A stretch of DNA of 7,372 nucleotides from positions 1-7,372 of the forward strand of contig JAVCCG010000042.1 in the NCBI GenBank assembly GCA_030765605.1, read 5' to 3'. Below are positions 12 to 6,941 of this stretch, piece by piece. Position 1 is the first letter of the stretch, and each line of letters opens with the position of its first letter. The notes below the pieces were generated by a model. It was not told the origin of the DNA, made no database searches, and worked only from the letters and a program-made list of their open reading frames with translations. This DNA comes from Candidatus Alcyoniella australis (lineage in GTDB: Bacteria; Lernaellota; Lernaellaia; JAVCCG01; Alcyoniellaceae). Made by a program: the position numbers and the translations under genes.

Positions 12-446
12 ATGGCCAAGATCGACAAGTCCGACTGGACCGACGTTGAGCTGGACGAATACGGCGACTTCGTCATGGCTGCCGACGGCGATCTCGGTCT
101 GGTCTACGAGAACGACGCGCTCGGCCAGGACATCGCACACCGCGTATTGACCGTCCCCGGCTCCCTGCCCGAGACCGGGGACGACCCGGACATGGATGAG
201 GCCGACGACCCGGTAGACGAGTACGGCGCCGGCCTGCAGCGCTTTCTGCACAGCGAGCTCAACGCGGCCGGCCTGCGCGAGATGCTGCGCCTGGCCCGGG
301 GCGAGACGTCCAAGGAAGGCCGCGTGCGGCGCGACCTGATCGAGGTGCAACCGGTCGGGGTCGAGCAAAAGGGGCTCGATCTTCTGATCCGCGTCCAGCT
401 CGCGGACGGATCCACGGCCGAGTCTGAGGTCGAGGTGGGCACATGA
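12..446 (+). CDS. gp25/GPW-like baseplate wedge protein
   Basis: This 144-residue protein is probably the small wedge subunit that links the baseplate to the sheath of a contractile tail (T4 gp25, P2 gpW; Mu gp46 holds the same gene position). The sequence shows an acidic N-terminus, then a QDIAHRVLTVPG stretch (about residues 39-50), an acidic loop, EYGAGLQRFL (about 69-78), a helix, and an ending of beta type around RRDLIEVQPVGV. The order 'R-x-L-T-x-x-G, then YG-x-x-L, then V-R-x-D' and the length fit the gp25/GPW fold. The start ATG shares its A with a TGA at 10-12, so an upstream gene very likely ends there. The stop overlaps the next start (ATGA at 443-446). The family call rests on motif spacing and on the J-like gene that follows. 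Confidence 0.75.
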   Translation: MAKIDKSDWTDVELDEYGDFVMAADGDLGLVYENDALGQDIAHRVLTVPGSLPETGDDPDMDEADDPVDEYGAGLQRFLHSELNAAGLREMLRLARGETSKEGRVRRDLIEVQPVGVEQKGLDLLIRVQLADGSTAESEVEVGT

Positions 447-1597
447 ATATCAAAGACGCCGCGACCGTTTACGCCGAGCTAAAGGCCGACGCCCAGGCCG
501 AGGAGGCCAACGGCCTCAAGGTGCGCAACTACCGCCGGGGCGGCGTGTGGCGCACCCTGCTGTGGCTCGTGGCCCGCGCCGCTGCCGCGCTCTACTCGCT
601 GATCGAGCTCGCCGTCAATATGGCCTTCCTGGATTATTGGGAGGCTGAGCCCCAGTCCTCGCAGACCAGCAGCATCGTCCTGGATTGGATCGCCGGGCTG
701 CTCGATGTCCAGCGCAAAACGGCCCGCAAGGCCCAAGGTACGGTGACCGTCGGCCGCAATGACGCCTCGGGCAGCACGACCTTCCCGGCAGGTGCGGTGG
801 TGGCCACGGTCCAGGACGATCAGGGGCTGACCCTGCGCTTTGTTTGCGATGCGGACGTGATTCTGGCCGCGGGCGAGGCTGAGAAGTCGGTGGCGGTAAC
901 CGCCGAGAACGTGGGCTCGTCGTACAACACCGGCGGGGGCCTGATCACGGTTCTGGAGAGCGCGATCGAGGGGATCGATTACGTGCGCAACCCCGAGGAC
1001 TGGATCACGGTCGAGGGCTGCGACACCGAGACCAACGGCAAGCTCGCCGCCCGCTGCCGGCTAAAGTGGCAGGAGTTGAGCTACGGCCCGGGCCTGTACG
1101 AGAGCCTGGCGCAGGCCGTACAGGGCGTGGAGTCGGTCACCGTCGTGGACAACAACCCCCGCAGCGTGGGGACCGTGGACGTGATCATCGAGGGCTCAGC
1201 CGGATCGCCCAGCCCGGCGCTGCTGGCGGCCGTGCAGGCGCACATCGATAGCTGCAAGGTCGGAACGGACGATGTGCTGGTTCAGGGCCCGACCGCGAAG
1301 CTGCTTGACCTTTCCGTGGTGGCCACCAAGCACTATCAGGAGGGCGAGCTCTCCGCGTTCCTGGCCGCGGTCGAGGCGGCGATGGCCGACCTGTTCCAGC
1401 CCTCGAGCGCAGACTACGCCTTCCACATGGGCGAGAACTACCGTCGCAAGAAGGTCACGGACGCGGCGGCCGAGATCGAGCATTGCGTCAACTTCGAGGT
1501 GCAGACGCCGTCCCTGGCGGAGATCGAGATCGGTTCCAACGAGCTGCTTCAACCCGGGACCGTCACGGTCCGCGTTGTAACGGCGGGCAAACGATGA
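443..1597 (+). CDS. Baseplate J-like protein
   Basis: This 384-residue protein matches the baseplate J family (P2 gpJ, Mu gp47, T4 gp6-like), which forms the wedge ring of the contractile baseplate. The N-terminal third is helical with a hydrophobic Trp/Leu/Ala stretch (about residues 34-60). The family core follows: FPAGAVVAT (about 113-121), then a beta domain with the usual late block ENVGSSYNTGGGLITVL (about 155-171), then a Glu/Asp-rich DTETNGKLAARCRLKW, which corresponds to the 'G-x-D-x-E-x-x-x-x-x-R-x-R' signature. The C-terminal half alternates helix and strand, with VQGVESVTVVDN (about 229-240) typical of J proteins. A GAGGTG at 432-437 lies 5 bases before the ATG. The start overlaps the previous stop and the stop overlaps the next ATG, so translation is probably coupled. 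Length is normal and no damage is seen. Confidence 0.9.
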   Translation: MNIKDAATVYAELKADAQAEEANGLKVRNYRRGGVWRTLLWLVARAAAALYSLIELAVNMAFLDYWEAEPQSSQTSSIVLDWIAGLLDVQRKTARKAQGTVTVGRNDASGSTTFPAGAVVATVQDDQGLTLRFVCDADVILAAGEAEKSVAVTAENVGSSYNTGGGLITVLESAIEGIDYVRNPEDWITVEGCDTETNGKLAARCRLKWQELSYGPGLYESLAQAVQGVESVTVVDNNPRSVGTVDVIIEGSAGSPSPALLAAVQAHIDSCKVGTDDVLVQGPTAKLLDLSVVATKHYQEGELSAFLAAVEAAMADLFQPSSADYAFHMGENYRRKKVTDAAAEIEHCVNFEVQTPSLAEIEIGSNELLQPGTVTVRVVTAGKR

Positions 1598-2337
1598 TCG
1601 GCTTCAGCGAGTACCTCAGGCGTCGAGCGCACGTGATCTTCAAGAAGAAGCCCCGGCCCGACGGCCGCAAACGTGACACCGAGTTCTTTTTCGAGATCGC
1701 CGGCCGGACGCTGGACAGAGTGCGGGATCAGATCGTGACCCTGCTGCGCCAGATGGTCGCCGGCAGCGCCGGGGGCGAGTACCTGGTGCGCCACGGCCGC
1801 AACGCCGGGCTTAACAAGCTGCCGCTGGAGACCGACGAACAGTTCCGGGCCAAGGTCGCCAATCCCTGGGCTCACTGGCGCTACGCCGGATCGCCCTCGC
1901 GCCTCGAGGAGCACGCCACGCTCTTGGGCTACGAGATCGAGGTCGAGGAGGTCTTCCGCGACTACGCGGAGGGCGAGCCCCGGACGCGCTGGAGCGACCT
2001 GCGCGTGACCGTGCTCGATCTGGGCATGCTGCCCCAGCGCGATTTCCTACACGAGCTGCGGCGTCGGCGGCCGGCGCGCTCGATCATGCAGTTCGAGCTG
2101 GGGCCCGAGCTTCAGGTCTGCTGGTTCGACGACGACGGCGGATCGTGGGACGACCTGGGGCAGTTCGACGACTGGACCGTCGGCCCGTGGGAGCGCTTCG
2201 ACGACGGCCTGGGGCTGCGCTTTGACGACGGCGGGTACTTCGACGGATGGCGCGGCCAGGCTGAGCCTCCGACCTACGCTTACTTCGACGATTCCGGCCT
2301 GCTCGATGACAGCGGCCGCTTTGATCTCGCTTATTAG
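1594..2337 (+). CDS. Tail protein I-like (baseplate/fibre connector) with FDD-repeat tail
   Basis: This 247-residue protein sits between the J-like gene and the fibre gene, the slot of P2 gpI and Mu gp48, which connect baseplate and fibres. I chose the ATG at 1594 because it overlaps the previous stop (ATGA) and because upstream in-frame codons lie inside the J gene. The N-terminus is strongly basic (about residues 9-27), followed by amphipathic helices with LETDEQFRAKVANPW (about 79-93) and SRLEEHATLLGYEIEVEEV (about 100-118), both typical of I-type proteins that bind the baseplate ring. From about residue 177 the protein becomes a run of short Phe/Trp-Asp-Asp-Gly units. This could be a repetitive attachment or metal-binding tail. 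The function of that part is not known to me. The call rests on position and helical layout more than on exact motifs. Confidence 0.7.
   Translation: MIGFSEYLRRRAHVIFKKKPRPDGRKRDTEFFFEIAGRTLDRVRDQIVTLLRQMVAGSAGGEYLVRHGRNAGLNKLPLETDEQFRAKVANPWAHWRYAGSPSRLEEHATLLGYEIEVEEVFRDYAEGEPRTRWSDLRVTVLDLGMLPQRDFLHELRRRRPARSIMQFELGPELQVCWFDDDGGSWDDLGQFDDWTVGPWERFDDGLGLRFDDGGYFDGWRGQAEPPTYAYFDDSGLLDDSGRFDLAY
2122..2325 (+). repeat. In-frame (F/W/L)DD(G) coding repeats
   Basis: The 3' end of the I-like gene carries degenerate repeats of a ttcgacgac-like unit, with Phe codons at 2125, 2164, 2197, 2221, 2239, 2284 and 2320, each followed by Asp, plus WDD and LDD variants between them. At protein level this gives WFDDD, WDD, FDDW, FDDG, FDDG, FDGW, FDDS, LDD and FDL. 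Spacing is irregular (roughly 6-15 codons), so this is a degenerate protein repeat and not a perfect tandem DNA repeat. Confidence 0.85.
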
Positions 2338-2346: not shown

Positions 2347-4479
2347 ATGACTCAAATTCGGACCTTCGATTACAAGGAAGAGCGGCGCACGCTGTTTCTC
2401 AACCGCCATCTAAAGGGCCTGATGCTGCCCGGCTTCCATTCCGGGTTTGGCGTGCAGGCGGGCTCCTCGGGCAAGCTGACTATTACGGCCGGCGTGATGT
2501 GCACGCGCGACGGCGTTCGCATCGAGGAGACCGAGGACCTGGCCGACTGCCTGGACATCGAGGCCAATTCCTCGGGCGAGGTGAGGTGCGACCGCATCGT
2601 GCTGCGGCACGAGTTCCAGGAGGCATACCCCGCGCTGCCCGCGACCTACGAGATTCTACAGGGTACGCCCGGCGCCAACGCGCCGCCTTCCGAGCCCTCC
2701 GACGGCTATACCCTGGCCGTGGGCTACATCATGCCCGGCCAGTCCGATTACGGCTCGATCATCAGCAGCGGACGCTTTCAGGAGAATTTCCGCTACATCG
2801 AGATCGGCAGCGGCAGGTATGGCACCAACGACAGCTACGAAACGCCCGAGCTGCTGGCGGCGGACTACAACGGCTGGGACGGGCTGCTGCGAGCGATCGA
2901 CGACCTGCGTGACGAGACCGTGTTCGTTCGCCTGGTTGGCACGATCGATATCCACGGCACCCTGGAGGTCCCCGCGGGTTGGGCCGTGGACGCCTCGGCC
3001 GGGTGGATCGCGGCCGACAGCGGGGTGTCCCCGGCCGTTGACCTGCTGAGCTGGGCCGGCTCCGGCCAGGTCACGCAGGAGACCGGGGAGTACTACATCG
3101 AGGACACCGGCCACGAGCTGAGCAAGCTCTCGAAGCTCGCCCTGCTGATCATCGAGGGCGGCGGCAATACGGCGTATTGCAACATCGCCGAGCGCGTTAG
3201 CTCAACCAAGGGGCGCCTCAGCGTGCAGAGCTGCAGCCCCGAGATGCCCACGGGCGAGGTGACTTACAAGGCCCTGGCCAGCGCCCGCTGGGAGGGCGGA
3301 ACGATCATCGCCGCCGAGGGGGGCGATGGCCTGCATGCGGATTATCTGCAAAATGGCCCGATCCGGCGGCTGTTCTGCGCCTGTGCGGGTTCGGGCGGCC
3401 AGGCAATCAGCTCCGAGGGCGCTGGCTACGACGCGGTAATCGATGGCTGCAAGGTGCAAGGCTCCTGGTCCAAGGCCATCGCCGTTGACAACTGGCAAGG
3501 CGGCCGGGTCGTGAACAACGACTGCTCCACCCGCGAAATACTGATCGGCCAGAACTGCACCGATGTACTGGTCAAGGGCAACACGGGGAACACAAAGCTT
3601 TACGGCCAGGGGTGCGGCGACTTCTCCAAGCCCTTCAGCCAGGAACACAGCCTGGCCGGCGTGCACGATCAGCACCAAGAGTACGCCTACGTCCGCACCG
3701 GCGTGGTCGTGCTGGAGCCGCTGGTGGCCCAGGCTCTGGCCGAGCAGAAGGTTGTGCGGCTGCCCTTGGGGCGCGGCGCGAGCTTCGCCGAGGGAGATAT
3801 CGTCTGGCTACGCGGTAACGCCACGGCCGGCTCAGCCGAGTTCAACCGGGTGGACAGCATCACGCCCGGCGAGGGCGAGATCGAGTACGACGAGATCACC
3901 CTGGTGGACGATCTGCAATGGACCAAGGACTACACCCAGGGCGGCCCGTACTCGATCATTGCCCGGGTCAAACGCCTGGACCTGCTGCTCGACGGCCGCG
4001 ATCGTTTGGTCGGCTGCCGTGGCGTGGTTCGGCCCCAGGAGCACGCCAACACCCTTGAGGACGCCCTGACCAGACTGCCCGGCGGCGAGAACGATTCCGA
4101 GATGCACGCCTGGCTTGAGCCGGCCGGGTCCAGCGGAGTGGACATTAAGGCCCGCTCCGTGCGCTACGCGGCTTGCCAGGTTTACGCGGCCGACGGCGTA
4201 CATCCCGTGGGCGTGGACGCCCGGCCGTCCCTCGATAGCTGGGGTGTGCTCCACGATGACAACTGGGTGCTGACCCTCGACCCGGCGTACAACCCCCAAG
4301 GGCGGCTGTTCGTGGCCAACGCCGATGTGACCATCGGCGGCGAGACCGCGATCGGCGCCGGCGAGCTGCTGATCACGGGCATCGGCTGGGAGACCGAGGA
4401 CCTGGACAATTATCGCGGCCTGATGCCCTACATCCTGACCATCACCCTCTCGCCCATCCTCGGCGGCGGATACGTATGA
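2347..4479 (+). CDS. Tail fibre / tail spike protein, beta-helix-like
   Basis: This 710-residue protein is probably the host-recognition fibre or spike. The N-terminus (about residues 1-145) resembles the baseplate-attachment part of phage fibre proteins: a FDYKEERRTLFLNR start, a hydrophobic LKGLMLPGF segment, then beta-rich sequence with DRIVLRHEF and a Gly/Pro-rich loop. A 'GSGRYGTNDSYETPELLA' linker follows (about 157-174). The middle (about 270-420) has short strands with Gly, Asn and Cys turns (for example SSEGAGYDAVIDGC and GGRVVNNDC), like the rungs of a right-handed parallel beta-helix. The C-terminal part (about 430-710) is beta-rich with repeated Gly/Asp turns. Some phage beta-helix spikes cleave surface polysaccharide, but no catalytic residues can be assigned by eye. 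No fibre-assembly chaperone gene follows; the next gene is on the other strand. Confidence 0.8.
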   Translation: MTQIRTFDYKEERRTLFLNRHLKGLMLPGFHSGFGVQAGSSGKLTITAGVMCTRDGVRIEETEDLADCLDIEANSSGEVRCDRIVLRHEFQEAYPALPATYEILQGTPGANAPPSEPSDGYTLAVGYIMPGQSDYGSIISSGRFQENFRYIEIGSGRYGTNDSYETPELLAADYNGWDGLLRAIDDLRDETVFVRLVGTIDIHGTLEVPAGWAVDASAGWIAADSGVSPAVDLLSWAGSGQVTQETGEYYIEDTGHELSKLSKLALLIIEGGGNTAYCNIAERVSSTKGRLSVQSCSPEMPTGEVTYKALASARWEGGTIIAAEGGDGLHADYLQNGPIRRLFCACAGSGGQAISSEGAGYDAVIDGCKVQGSWSKAIAVDNWQGGRVVNNDCSTREILIGQNCTDVLVKGNTGNTKLYGQGCGDFSKPFSQEHSLAGVHDQHQEYAYVRTGVVVLEPLVAQALAEQKVVRLPLGRGASFAEGDIVWLRGNATAGSAEFNRVDSITPGEGEIEYDEITLVDDLQWTKDYTQGGPYSIIARVKRLDLLLDGRDRLVGCRGVVRPQEHANTLEDALTRLPGGENDSEMHAWLEPAGSSGVDIKARSVRYAACQVYAADGVHPVGVDARPSLDSWGVLHDDNWVLTLDPAYNPQGRLFVANADVTIGGETAIGAGELLITGIGWETEDLDNYRGLMPYILTITLSPILGGGYV

Positions 4480-4511
4480 GAGAGCCAAGCCCTGGAAGAC
4501 GATAGATGAGC

Positions 4512-5012
4512 CTACAGAGAAAGCCCCGCAGCCAGGATGTTATTGAGTACGGCAATAAAGGCTGGATGTTGGGAAAGATCTTTCAACTTTTCCAGAATTG
4601 TCTTGCGCTCATCATCTTCCATTTCTACTTCTTCCAGTCCCTTATTGAACTGCTCAAGGAGCTGGTTGGCATTCAGGATGATGGTTTGCGAGCCTCCGAC
4701 ATTAACGGCGCCACCGGACAAAGAGCCGATATTAAACACCTGATTCTGTTGGAGTGGCAATTCCGAACCAACATTGGTATCCGTTTGTTCTACTTCATCG
4801 ACGCCATCTATCGTAATGGTTACATGGCCGATAGCCATCCTTTTCAGAAGACCTTTTTGAACAAGATACTGGGTTTCCCGAAGGACGTCCTTTTGCTCCA
4901 GTCCCAAGGCTCTGGCCATTTCCTCGATAGGAACCATGACTCCCATTCCAAGTGCCTGGCACTCAGAATACATAAGACTAAGGATTTTTCCTCGTATTTC
5001 CTGATTGGTCAT
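4512..5012 (-). CDS. Winged-helix-like protein with Gly/Asn-rich strand motif, unknown function
   Basis: This 166-residue protein has three visible parts. Residues 1-75 look like a winged helix: two or three helices (EIRGKILSLMYSE, IEEMARALGL, KDVLRETQYLVQKGLLKR) followed by a wing-type strand VTITIDGVDEVE. Residues 93-115 form a Gly/Asn/Val block, FNIGSLSGGAVNVGG then SQTIILN. Residues 116-164 are helical, with a charged EEVEMEDDERKTILEKLKDL stretch and a hydrophobic end. I know this three-part layout from stand-alone bacterial and archaeal proteins of unknown role. I chose the ATG at 5012 because the reverse strand reads gaaaggg 8 bases before it. An in-frame extension of 30 residues upstream is possible but looks unlike coding sequence. 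The gene converges on the fibre gene (32 bases between stops) and diverges from the next. It has lower GC than all its neighbours. A regulator, or a protein that assembles through the Gly/Asn motif, is an inference. Confidence 0.75.
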   Translation of the reverse strand: MTNQEIRGKILSLMYSECQALGMGVMVPIEEMARALGLEQKDVLRETQYLVQKGLLKRMAIGHVTITIDGVDEVEQTDTNVGSELPLQQNQVFNIGSLSGGAVNVGGSQTIILNANQLLEQFNKGLEEVEMEDDERKTILEKLKDLSQHPAFIAVLNNILAAGLSL

Positions 5013-5067
5013 GTCGCCATCCCTTTCAATTTTGTAATTCCTTCCAACCATTCGCATGGTCCATGTA

Positions 5068-5097
5068 TGTATAAAACAATTCCATTTTTGTTGTCGG
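5068..5097 (-). promoter_or_regulatory. Possible promoter of the minus-strand island gene
   Basis: Read on the minus strand, CCGACA (5092-5097) and TATACA (5068-5073) are 18 bases apart and resemble sigma-70 -35 and -10 boxes. They lie about 55 bases before the chosen ATG. A cargo gene against the operon needs its own promoter, which supports the call, but the -35 box matches only 4 of 6 consensus bases. Confidence 0.35.
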
Positions 5098-5099
5098 AG
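5096..5099 (+). promoter_or_regulatory. Ribosome binding site deciding the 5108 start
   Basis: GGAG lies 8 bases before GTG 5108 and only 2 bases before the in-frame TTG at 5102, so the GTG is the better start for the following gene. Confidence 0.55.
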
Positions 5100-5107
5100 C
5101 ATTGCAG

Positions 5108-5875
5108 GTGAGGCGCTTCGAGCGGCCCTTCTGGATTCTGGCCTGCCTGGCGCTGATCGCCGGCCTGGCCTGGAGCCAGTGGACCGTCTCCGAGTTCAAG
5201 CAGCGCGCAGCAGCCGCCACGCGCCTGGCTGCCGGCGTGCTGGTCGAGATGGGCTTCGAGGCCGCGGTCCCGGCCTCGGCGCGCGAGCTGGCCAAGGCCT
5301 TTGGCTCAGGCATCGAGCAGATTGAGGGCAGTGGGCTACAGCTCGTCGCGGTCGAAAAAACAAGTTTGCGGGTCCGGTCCTCCCGCAGGGCGGTGCGGCG
5401 GTCCCGGCCTCGGGCCGGGGCCGCTGCGCCCAAAACAACGCCTGCGGCCCAAGCCGTGCCGCTGCCCTGGACCGATGGCCGACTCACCCTCGAGCGCTAT
5501 CACGACCAGGCGCTGGATTACTCGCTCGATCAGCGCTTTCGCGCCCAGGGCTCCTACATCGCCGACATGACCGGGGAGATCCGCTTCGGCGCGTTCGAGC
5601 TGGTCGAGCTCGGCGACAACGGCGAGCCCCTCGAGGGCTCTCAATCCGAGGTTACTGAATATGAGTTGCTCGCCCTGCGCGAGCCCGCACGCTCCGAGGA
5701 GCGGCCGCTCAAGTGGGGTGTGTTCGGCGGCGTCACAGCCGGAGGCGAGGGACGGCTCAAAGGGCTGTTCGCCGGGCCCCGGCTGCGCTGGAAGGGTTTT
5801 GGCATTGGCCTCGCCGGCCAGGTGGACGACACCCTTGCCCCGGGGATCTCGATCGAGGTGGAGTACTTCCCGTAG
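5108..5875 (+). CDS. Membrane-anchored phage protein of unknown function
   Basis: I do not recognise this 255-residue protein. Two or three basic residues at the N-terminus precede a hydrophobic stretch (FWILACLALIAGLAW, about residues 8-22), which suggests one inner-membrane anchor with the rest in the periplasm. No good lipobox is seen: the Cys at 12 lies inside the hydrophobic core. An Ala-rich helical part follows (about 31-70), then a basic Arg/Ala/Pro linker (about 88-117), then a mixed domain. The end (about 201-255) is Gly-rich and strand-like (WGVFGGVTAGG, LFAGPRLRWKGFGIGLAGQ) and finishes in EVEYFP. A Gly-rich, strand-like C-terminus behind an N-terminal anchor is seen in several late-operon phage proteins, including inner-membrane lysis or spanin-type accessory proteins. 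A lysis role is only a guess. The gene is GC-rich like the tail operon. Confidence 0.7.
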   Translation: MRRFERPFWILACLALIAGLAWSQWTVSEFKQRAAAATRLAAGVLVEMGFEAAVPASARELAKAFGSGIEQIEGSGLQLVAVEKTSLRVRSSRRAVRRSRPRAGAAAPKTTPAAQAVPLPWTDGRLTLERYHDQALDYSLDQRFRAQGSYIADMTGEIRFGAFELVELGDNGEPLEGSQSEVTEYELLALREPARSEERPLKWGVFGGVTAGGEGRLKGLFAGPRLRWKGFGIGLAGQVDDTLAPGISIEVEYFP

Positions 5876-6047: not shown

Positions 6048-6941
6048 GTGGTAACACCTCTCGCTCACAGATTCATAGTCCCGCCTTTTACGGTTCTCAA
6101 TGCCCGTTCTTCCTTCTGGATACAACGTAAGCGGCTGTGGCTGCGCTACATCGGGCCAATGCGGCCAACGGCTCCGGTGCCGCTGTTTCCCCCAATTCGC
6201 AAGGGCAACAAACTGGTCCACACTAACGGAGGGCTGTCGATTTTCGACCCGGTGCTGGCCGAGATCCTGATCCATTGGTTTTGCCCGGTCGGCGGGGCGA
6301 TCCTCGACCCGTTCGGCGGCGAGGCCGTCAAGGGCATTGTGGCTGCCAAGACGGGCCGCGAGTACGTTGGCGTTGAAGTCAGGCGGAAGCAGGTCGAGGA
6401 GAACCTAACAATCGCCGCCCGCCTTGGTTTGGACTGCCGCTGGATCGTCGGCGACAGCGTTCATCTCAATAAGCTATTGCCCGAGATGGAGTACGATTTT
6501 TGCTTCTCCTCGCCGCCTTACTACAACCTGGAGCGGTATCGAGGAGGCGATGGGGACCTTTCCGAAAAACAGTCCTATCAGGACTTCCTCGAGGCCTACG
6601 GCCTGGTTCTGGCCAGGTGCGCCAACAAGCTCAAGCCCGGCCGCTTGCTGGCTATGAAGGTCGGTGAATTCCGGGATAAGAAGGGCGAGATCCAGGGCTT
6701 TGTAAACGACACGGTGGATATGGCCCGAATGGCCGGGCTGAAATACTTCAACCATCTGGCGCTGCTGATGCCGTTAGTTACGGCGCCACTGCGCGCTGCC
6801 GGACACATGCGCTTGCGTAAGGTGGTCCAAGTCCACCAGACCGTGCTTGTGTTCATCAAAGGGGAGCCCCGTGGCCTCGATCGCGGCGCGTTCCCCATCA
6901 TCTCGGAGAACTACGTTGATCCCCTTTCGGCTGTTGAATAA
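6048..6941 (+). CDS. Phage-type DNA methyltransferase (N4-cytosine or N6-adenine)
   Basis: This 297-residue enzyme should transfer a methyl group from S-adenosylmethionine to an exocyclic amino group of adenine or cytosine in DNA. The order of motifs is: an N-terminal PPFTVLNARSSFWIQRKR block (residues 12-29), which I know from phage methylases; a motif-X-like HTNGGLSIFDPVLAE (58-72); SAM-binding motif I ILDPFGG (85-91) with GIVAAKTGREYVGVEV (96-111); catalytic motif IV SSPPYYNLERY (154-164); SYQDFLEAYGLVL (176-188); LKPGRLLAMKVGEFRDKKG (195-213); and a C-terminal VFIKG (268-272). Motif I before motif IV excludes the permuted beta order. The first glycine step is DPFGGEAVKG in place of the common DPFxGxGT, a variant seen in phage enzymes. 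Ser before PPY leans toward N4-cytosine but does not settle it. No nuclease is fused or adjacent, so this looks like an orphan, protective methylase. The target sequence is unknown. Confidence 0.88.
   Translation: MVTPLAHRFIVPPFTVLNARSSFWIQRKRLWLRYIGPMRPTAPVPLFPPIRKGNKLVHTNGGLSIFDPVLAEILIHWFCPVGGAILDPFGGEAVKGIVAAKTGREYVGVEVRRKQVEENLTIAARLGLDCRWIVGDSVHLNKLLPEMEYDFCFSSPPYYNLERYRGGDGDLSEKQSYQDFLEAYGLVLARCANKLKPGRLLAMKVGEFRDKKGEIQGFVNDTVDMARMAGLKYFNHLALLMPLVTAPLRAAGHMRLRKVVQVHQTVLVFIKGEPRGLDRGAFPIISENYVDPLSAVE

Follow-up and report, generated by a model that had tools for sequence, protein, structure and literature searches.

A near-orphan gene for a predicted winged-helix protein, antisense to phage late genes behind a tail fibre gene in Candidatus Alcyoniella australis: a putative moron

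The window analysed here, 7372 bp in length, is the whole of contig JAVCCG010000042.1 in the draft genome of Candidatus Alcyoniella australis (4.29 Mb, 157 contigs), and harbours a phage tail module. Its likely genes are all located on the plus strand, with the exception of one minus-strand open reading frame running from 5012 to 4512. The plus-strand genes encode, in this order, a small baseplate-like protein, baseplate J, a protein resembling gp I and Mu gp48, a fibre-like protein, a protein with a hydrophobic N-terminus and a DNA methyltransferase, and are followed by an open frame truncated by the end of the contig. No Rfam family was found in the window. The following features are of importance here:

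443..1597, plus strand: baseplate J-like protein (PF04865, E 2.7e-35; phrog_6, E 2.6e-44)
1594..2337, plus strand: tail protein I / gp48-like (PHROG baseplate and tail matches, weak Pfam matches, synteny with same-class modules)
2347..4479, plus strand: tail fibre-like gene of 710 aa that immediately precedes the candidate insert (weak Pfam beta-helix and PHROG structural matches)
4470..5103, no strand: low-GC segment, candidate insert (maximum-likelihood change-point fit and sliding GC profile)
4512..5012, minus strand: putative antisense cargo gene, 166 aa, start ATG 5012, GC 46.5% (open reading frame; AlphaFold2 model, MarR-type winged helix-turn-helix (wHTH), Z about 12)
5013..5095, minus strand: AT-rich 5' leader of the antisense gene, about 84 bp (from the sequence; purine-rich ribosome binding site, weak promoter-like pair)
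5108..5875, plus strand: late gene after the candidate insert, start GTG 5108, preceded by GGAG at 5096-5099
6048..6941, plus strand: phage-type N6/N4 DNA methyltransferase (phrog_12517, E 1e-79)

The product of the late gene at 5108..5875 has a single hydrophobic segment, located N-terminally, and matched no family in Pfam or PHROG. A distant paralogue (E 3e-8) is encoded elsewhere in this genome, on contig C113 (L026:11671-12492), where its neighbours are ordinary chromosomal-looking genes. The methyltransferase gene has a GC content of 58.8%, below that of the tail genes. The description of every other gene in the window as GC-rich, given in an initial annotation of this DNA, is slightly too strong in view of the methyltransferase gene.

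Segment 4470-5103 has a GC content of 45.6%, against 65.7% in the remaining window, and a change-point model with this low-GC segment fitted better than a uniform one by 49 log-likelihood units. Within 2 log units the left border falls at 4465-4542 and the right border at 5087-5122. Both borders are sharp and lie near the fibre stop at 4479 and near the ribosome binding site and start of the next gene, respectively. The stretch between the fibre stop and GTG 5108 measures 0.63 kb, and the antisense gene ends 32 bp past the fibre stop. These data bear out what the initial annotation had reported from strand, composition and position, namely a sole minus-strand gene in an AT-richer stretch located directly after the fibre gene. 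Direct repeats flanking the segment, as a mark of insertion, were not found.

The GC content of the antisense gene by codon position is 0.60/0.30/0.49, while GC3 of the tail genes is 0.84-0.88 and that of the methyltransferase gene 0.73. Such values are those of protein-coding sequence in a genome of medium GC content. The minus strand is taken as the coding sense because of these codon-position values and because a winged-helix domain is indicated by homology and by structure prediction. An overlapping plus-strand open reading frame (4506-5111) was rejected as a gene, having no support of its own while the opposite strand yields a protein that is predicted to fold and has matches. A longer in-frame start, ATG 5102, would extend the antisense protein to 196 aa.

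With respect to expression signals, the annotated ribosome binding site is plausible, since the purine-rich motif AAAGGG was recognized by eye 8 nt before ATG 5012. The promoter that had also been assigned to the gene is unsupported: a consensus scan returned no sigma-70-like site for it, although promoter types of this lineage itself may differ, and the only promoter-like pair visible by eye in the leader, CCGACA-18-TATACA, has 8 of 12 consensus matches. No clear terminator was found; one weak terminator-like site lies within the end of the antisense gene.

Comparison with related elements lacking the island, proposed earlier as a check, was possible within the same class. Three tail modules, two on contigs of one genome and one of another genome, show the same J-I-fibre order, and the N-terminus of the fibre-like protein of the window is 35% identical to the product of the gene in the same position. 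In all three the antisense gene is absent, the fibre gene and the next co-directional gene are separated by 12-13 bp, and no AT-rich stretch occurs at the fibre end (minimum 300-bp GC 0.56). The genes past the fibre are a 132-aa gene and then an N-acetylmuramoyl-L-alanine amidase (lysis) gene on the same strand. Fibres and next genes are 79-88% identical among these three modules. The window is distant from them (J 32-34%, I 26%, fibre N-terminus 35% amino acid identity), and its gene after the fibre is a different one. Phage database matches to baseplate J were below 35% identity, and searches with the neighbouring methyltransferase and baseplate J genes found no close viral contigs, so that a closely related phage showing the empty site was not at hand. 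The accessory nature of the antisense gene is thus supported, because three same-class modules have neither this gene nor an AT-rich stretch. The proposal of an inserted cargo gene stands as far as composition, strand, the self-contained intergenic location and absence from related modules are concerned, whereas the comparators, distant and with another gene after the fibre, do not define the exact empty site.

An AlphaFold2 model of the antisense protein, built with six aligned sequences and superseding an earlier poor model (pLDDT 46), has a mean pLDDT of 69, with residues 1-70 at 85-94. The predicted layout comprises a wHTH at residues 1-80 (pLDDT 71-94 by block), a disordered Gly-rich linker at 80-113 and three C-terminal helices at 115-163 of lower confidence (pLDDT about 60-76). 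In a VIA-align search, which bears on the wHTH and barely tests the C-terminal part, the wHTH matched many structures of MarR-type regulators with Z about 12 and rmsd 1.3-2.5 A over about 70-80 residues, and several of these structures are DNA complexes. On the basis of the model we confidently predict that the N-terminal domain is a winged helix-turn-helix. Viral wHTH proteins were also matched in Foldseek, but such matches reflect the fold in general and were not counted as relatives. MarR-type regulators differ in having compact dimer helices, whereas in the antisense protein the C-terminal helices stand apart, behind a long linker. Furthermore, no Pfam or NCBIfam model, MarR included, reached its cut-off on the antisense protein. 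The candidates Pfam NPHP3_N and CheW and NCBIfam GatC scored far below their cut-offs and were rejected.

At the level of sequence the protein is a near-orphan. Direct homologue searches in phage, viral, plasmid and genome-contig collections gave no useful or close match, and the sole match in the same-class genomes searched was at chance level (E 0.9), which is not a convincing homologue. A search of 98 genomes yielded one credible relative, L003 of bacterium UBP14 UBA6098 (E 6e-4 in that genome), with 22% identity over 142 aa. L003 in turn led to L034 and L035, which share with it and with the antisense protein the order wHTH, low-complexity linker, C-terminal helices, and which are encoded beside dnaX-like genes. 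All three proteins are longer and lie outside evident phage modules, and their likely kinship to the antisense protein concerns the wHTH. The L003 wHTH gene is immediately adjoined by a DUF6173 gene (L003:983-1417), a possible operon partner. A family HMM built from L003, L034, L035 and a Nostoc relative scored the antisense wHTH at 20.4 bits and the whole protein at 18.1 bits, against 10.0 bits for the best of 5000 shuffles. Kinship of the antisense wHTH to this wHTH-linker-helical family is therefore judged likely from sequence. It leans on one relative, because L003, which was found by the query itself, lowers the score to 14.9 bits (about 13-15) when omitted, against 14.0 bits for the best shuffle. 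The C-terminal half scored 0.2 bits with the family HMM, no homology support, and gave nothing convincing when searched alone. A weak match to phrog_3983 (E 0.006) covers the C-terminal part only. A bacterial relative, L042, has a wHTH-helical layout, and searches with phrog_3983 and phrog_5789 added only one wHTH-helical protein.

The family extends to L036, in which two tandem wHTHs of the L003 kind are fused to a TIR/SEFIR domain (TIR_2 E 9e-20, SEFIR E 2e-17). A family HMM made without L036 or the window scored L036 at 76 bits and the antisense protein at 18 bits, the latter value leaning on L003 as a member. The gene for L036 (L036:1237-2766, G127:C40) lies beside a gene whose product is an ATP-binding, OLD/AAA-like protein; this looks like a conflict-system architecture. 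No description of SEFIR-wHTH fusions was found in the literature searched. A Brevibacillus plasmid protein (L019:3428-4333) combines an AbiTii domain (E 4e-47) with a subsequent L003-like linker and helical tail. The antisense protein points to an unnamed modular family of wHTH, linker and helical tail with links to TIR/SEFIR and AbiTii, which may be a module of conflict systems.

Two known systems resemble the locus in its arrangement. In P2 the phage-exclusion gene Z/fun is located near the tail fibre genes H-G, in a locus that varies among P2-like phages (PMC3091744). In both cases an accessory gene lies within the late region, where the tail fibre genes end (PMC3091744), but P2 has the fibre-assembly gene G in between. 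The likeness drawn here is one of position, and the P2 product is a phage-exclusion protein while that of the window is a predicted wHTH protein. The phi80 gene taiEcA, of the Tai immune systems, is a defence gene whose transcription runs against that of the late operon (PMC11364771). Like the putative moron studied here, it is antisense to a late operon that it interrupts (PMC11364771), but it is placed mostly upstream of packaging genes, and the likeness drawn here concerns orientation.

Taken together, the antisense gene is most likely a phage moron, an acquired AT-rich gene lodged between the fibre gene and the late gene behind it, and encodes a small DNA-binding regulator. We assign this explanation as a whole a probability of roughly 0.5. 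That the gene is a moron is well founded; its acquisition, expression and role, and the DNA binding and oligomerisation of its product, are what we infer. A single AT-rich gene would have been gained horizontally and come to lie antisense between the two plus-strand genes. The winged helix of its product would bind DNA, and the C-terminal three-helix module, joined to the wHTH by the flexible linker, may oligomerise the protein. The antisense placement would allow expression in the lysogen, or early, and convergent late transcription would switch the gene down. Winged helices also act as protein-protein modules, so that the wHTH fold by itself is no proof of DNA binding.

A doubtful, though possible, alternative is that the protein is a wHTH adaptor in conflict between phages or between phage and host, which would sense or dock to a partner and block rivals by superinfection exclusion or abortive infection. 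The relatives fused as a tandem pair to TIR/SEFIR beside an ATPase-like gene, the L003-type tail following AbiTii, the strand as in phi80 taiEcA (PMC11364771) and the position as in the P2 Z region (PMC3091744) are consistent with this. However, the antisense protein itself contains no effector domain, and its gene is flanked by that for the tail fibre and by the late gene 5108..5875; PADLOC gave no match for it; homology of its C-terminus to the AbiTii-linked tail is unsupported by the HMM score given above; and other wHTH relatives adjoin dnaX-like housekeeping genes. The initial annotation had suggested an effect on the host or a block to rival phages, and for such a role the TIR/SEFIR fusions of distant wHTH relatives are suggestive only. 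Between a DNA-binding regulator and a component of phage exclusion, we prefer the former.

It is rather unlikely that the gene is a silent passenger, gained by illegitimate recombination and neither expressed nor selected. The lack of a promoter consensus and the near-orphan status across all searches would fit such a passenger, but the frame of 166 aa is intact, has coding-type codon positions and a ribosome binding site, and is predicted to encode a well-folded wHTH. Very improbable is an antisense moron that encodes a stand-alone adaptor of a TIR/SEFIR-type conflict system, in which the wHTH, in other proteins fused to the effector, would act in trans to recruit or restrain a host effector. 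Assembly of a fragment of another organism into this contig is the least probable explanation; a lone 7.4-kb contig in a draft of 157 contigs and the abrupt composition change on both sides might suggest it, but the segment fits neatly into the gap from the fibre stop to the ribosome binding site of the next gene, has phage-type GC-rich sequence on both sides, and as a chimera would require two joins, each at a gene border.

Morons of this type were already known; what is new is the near-orphan winged-helix member. A gene of this kind is added to the antisense morons behind tail fibre genes, from a poorly sampled bacterial lineage. A fourth same-class module, L029, carries a different antisense gene (L029:7132-8202), which codes for an acidic, lipoprotein-like product and is located 6 bp past the fibre gene. 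This hints that the site at the fibre end may have received antisense genes on more than one occasion.
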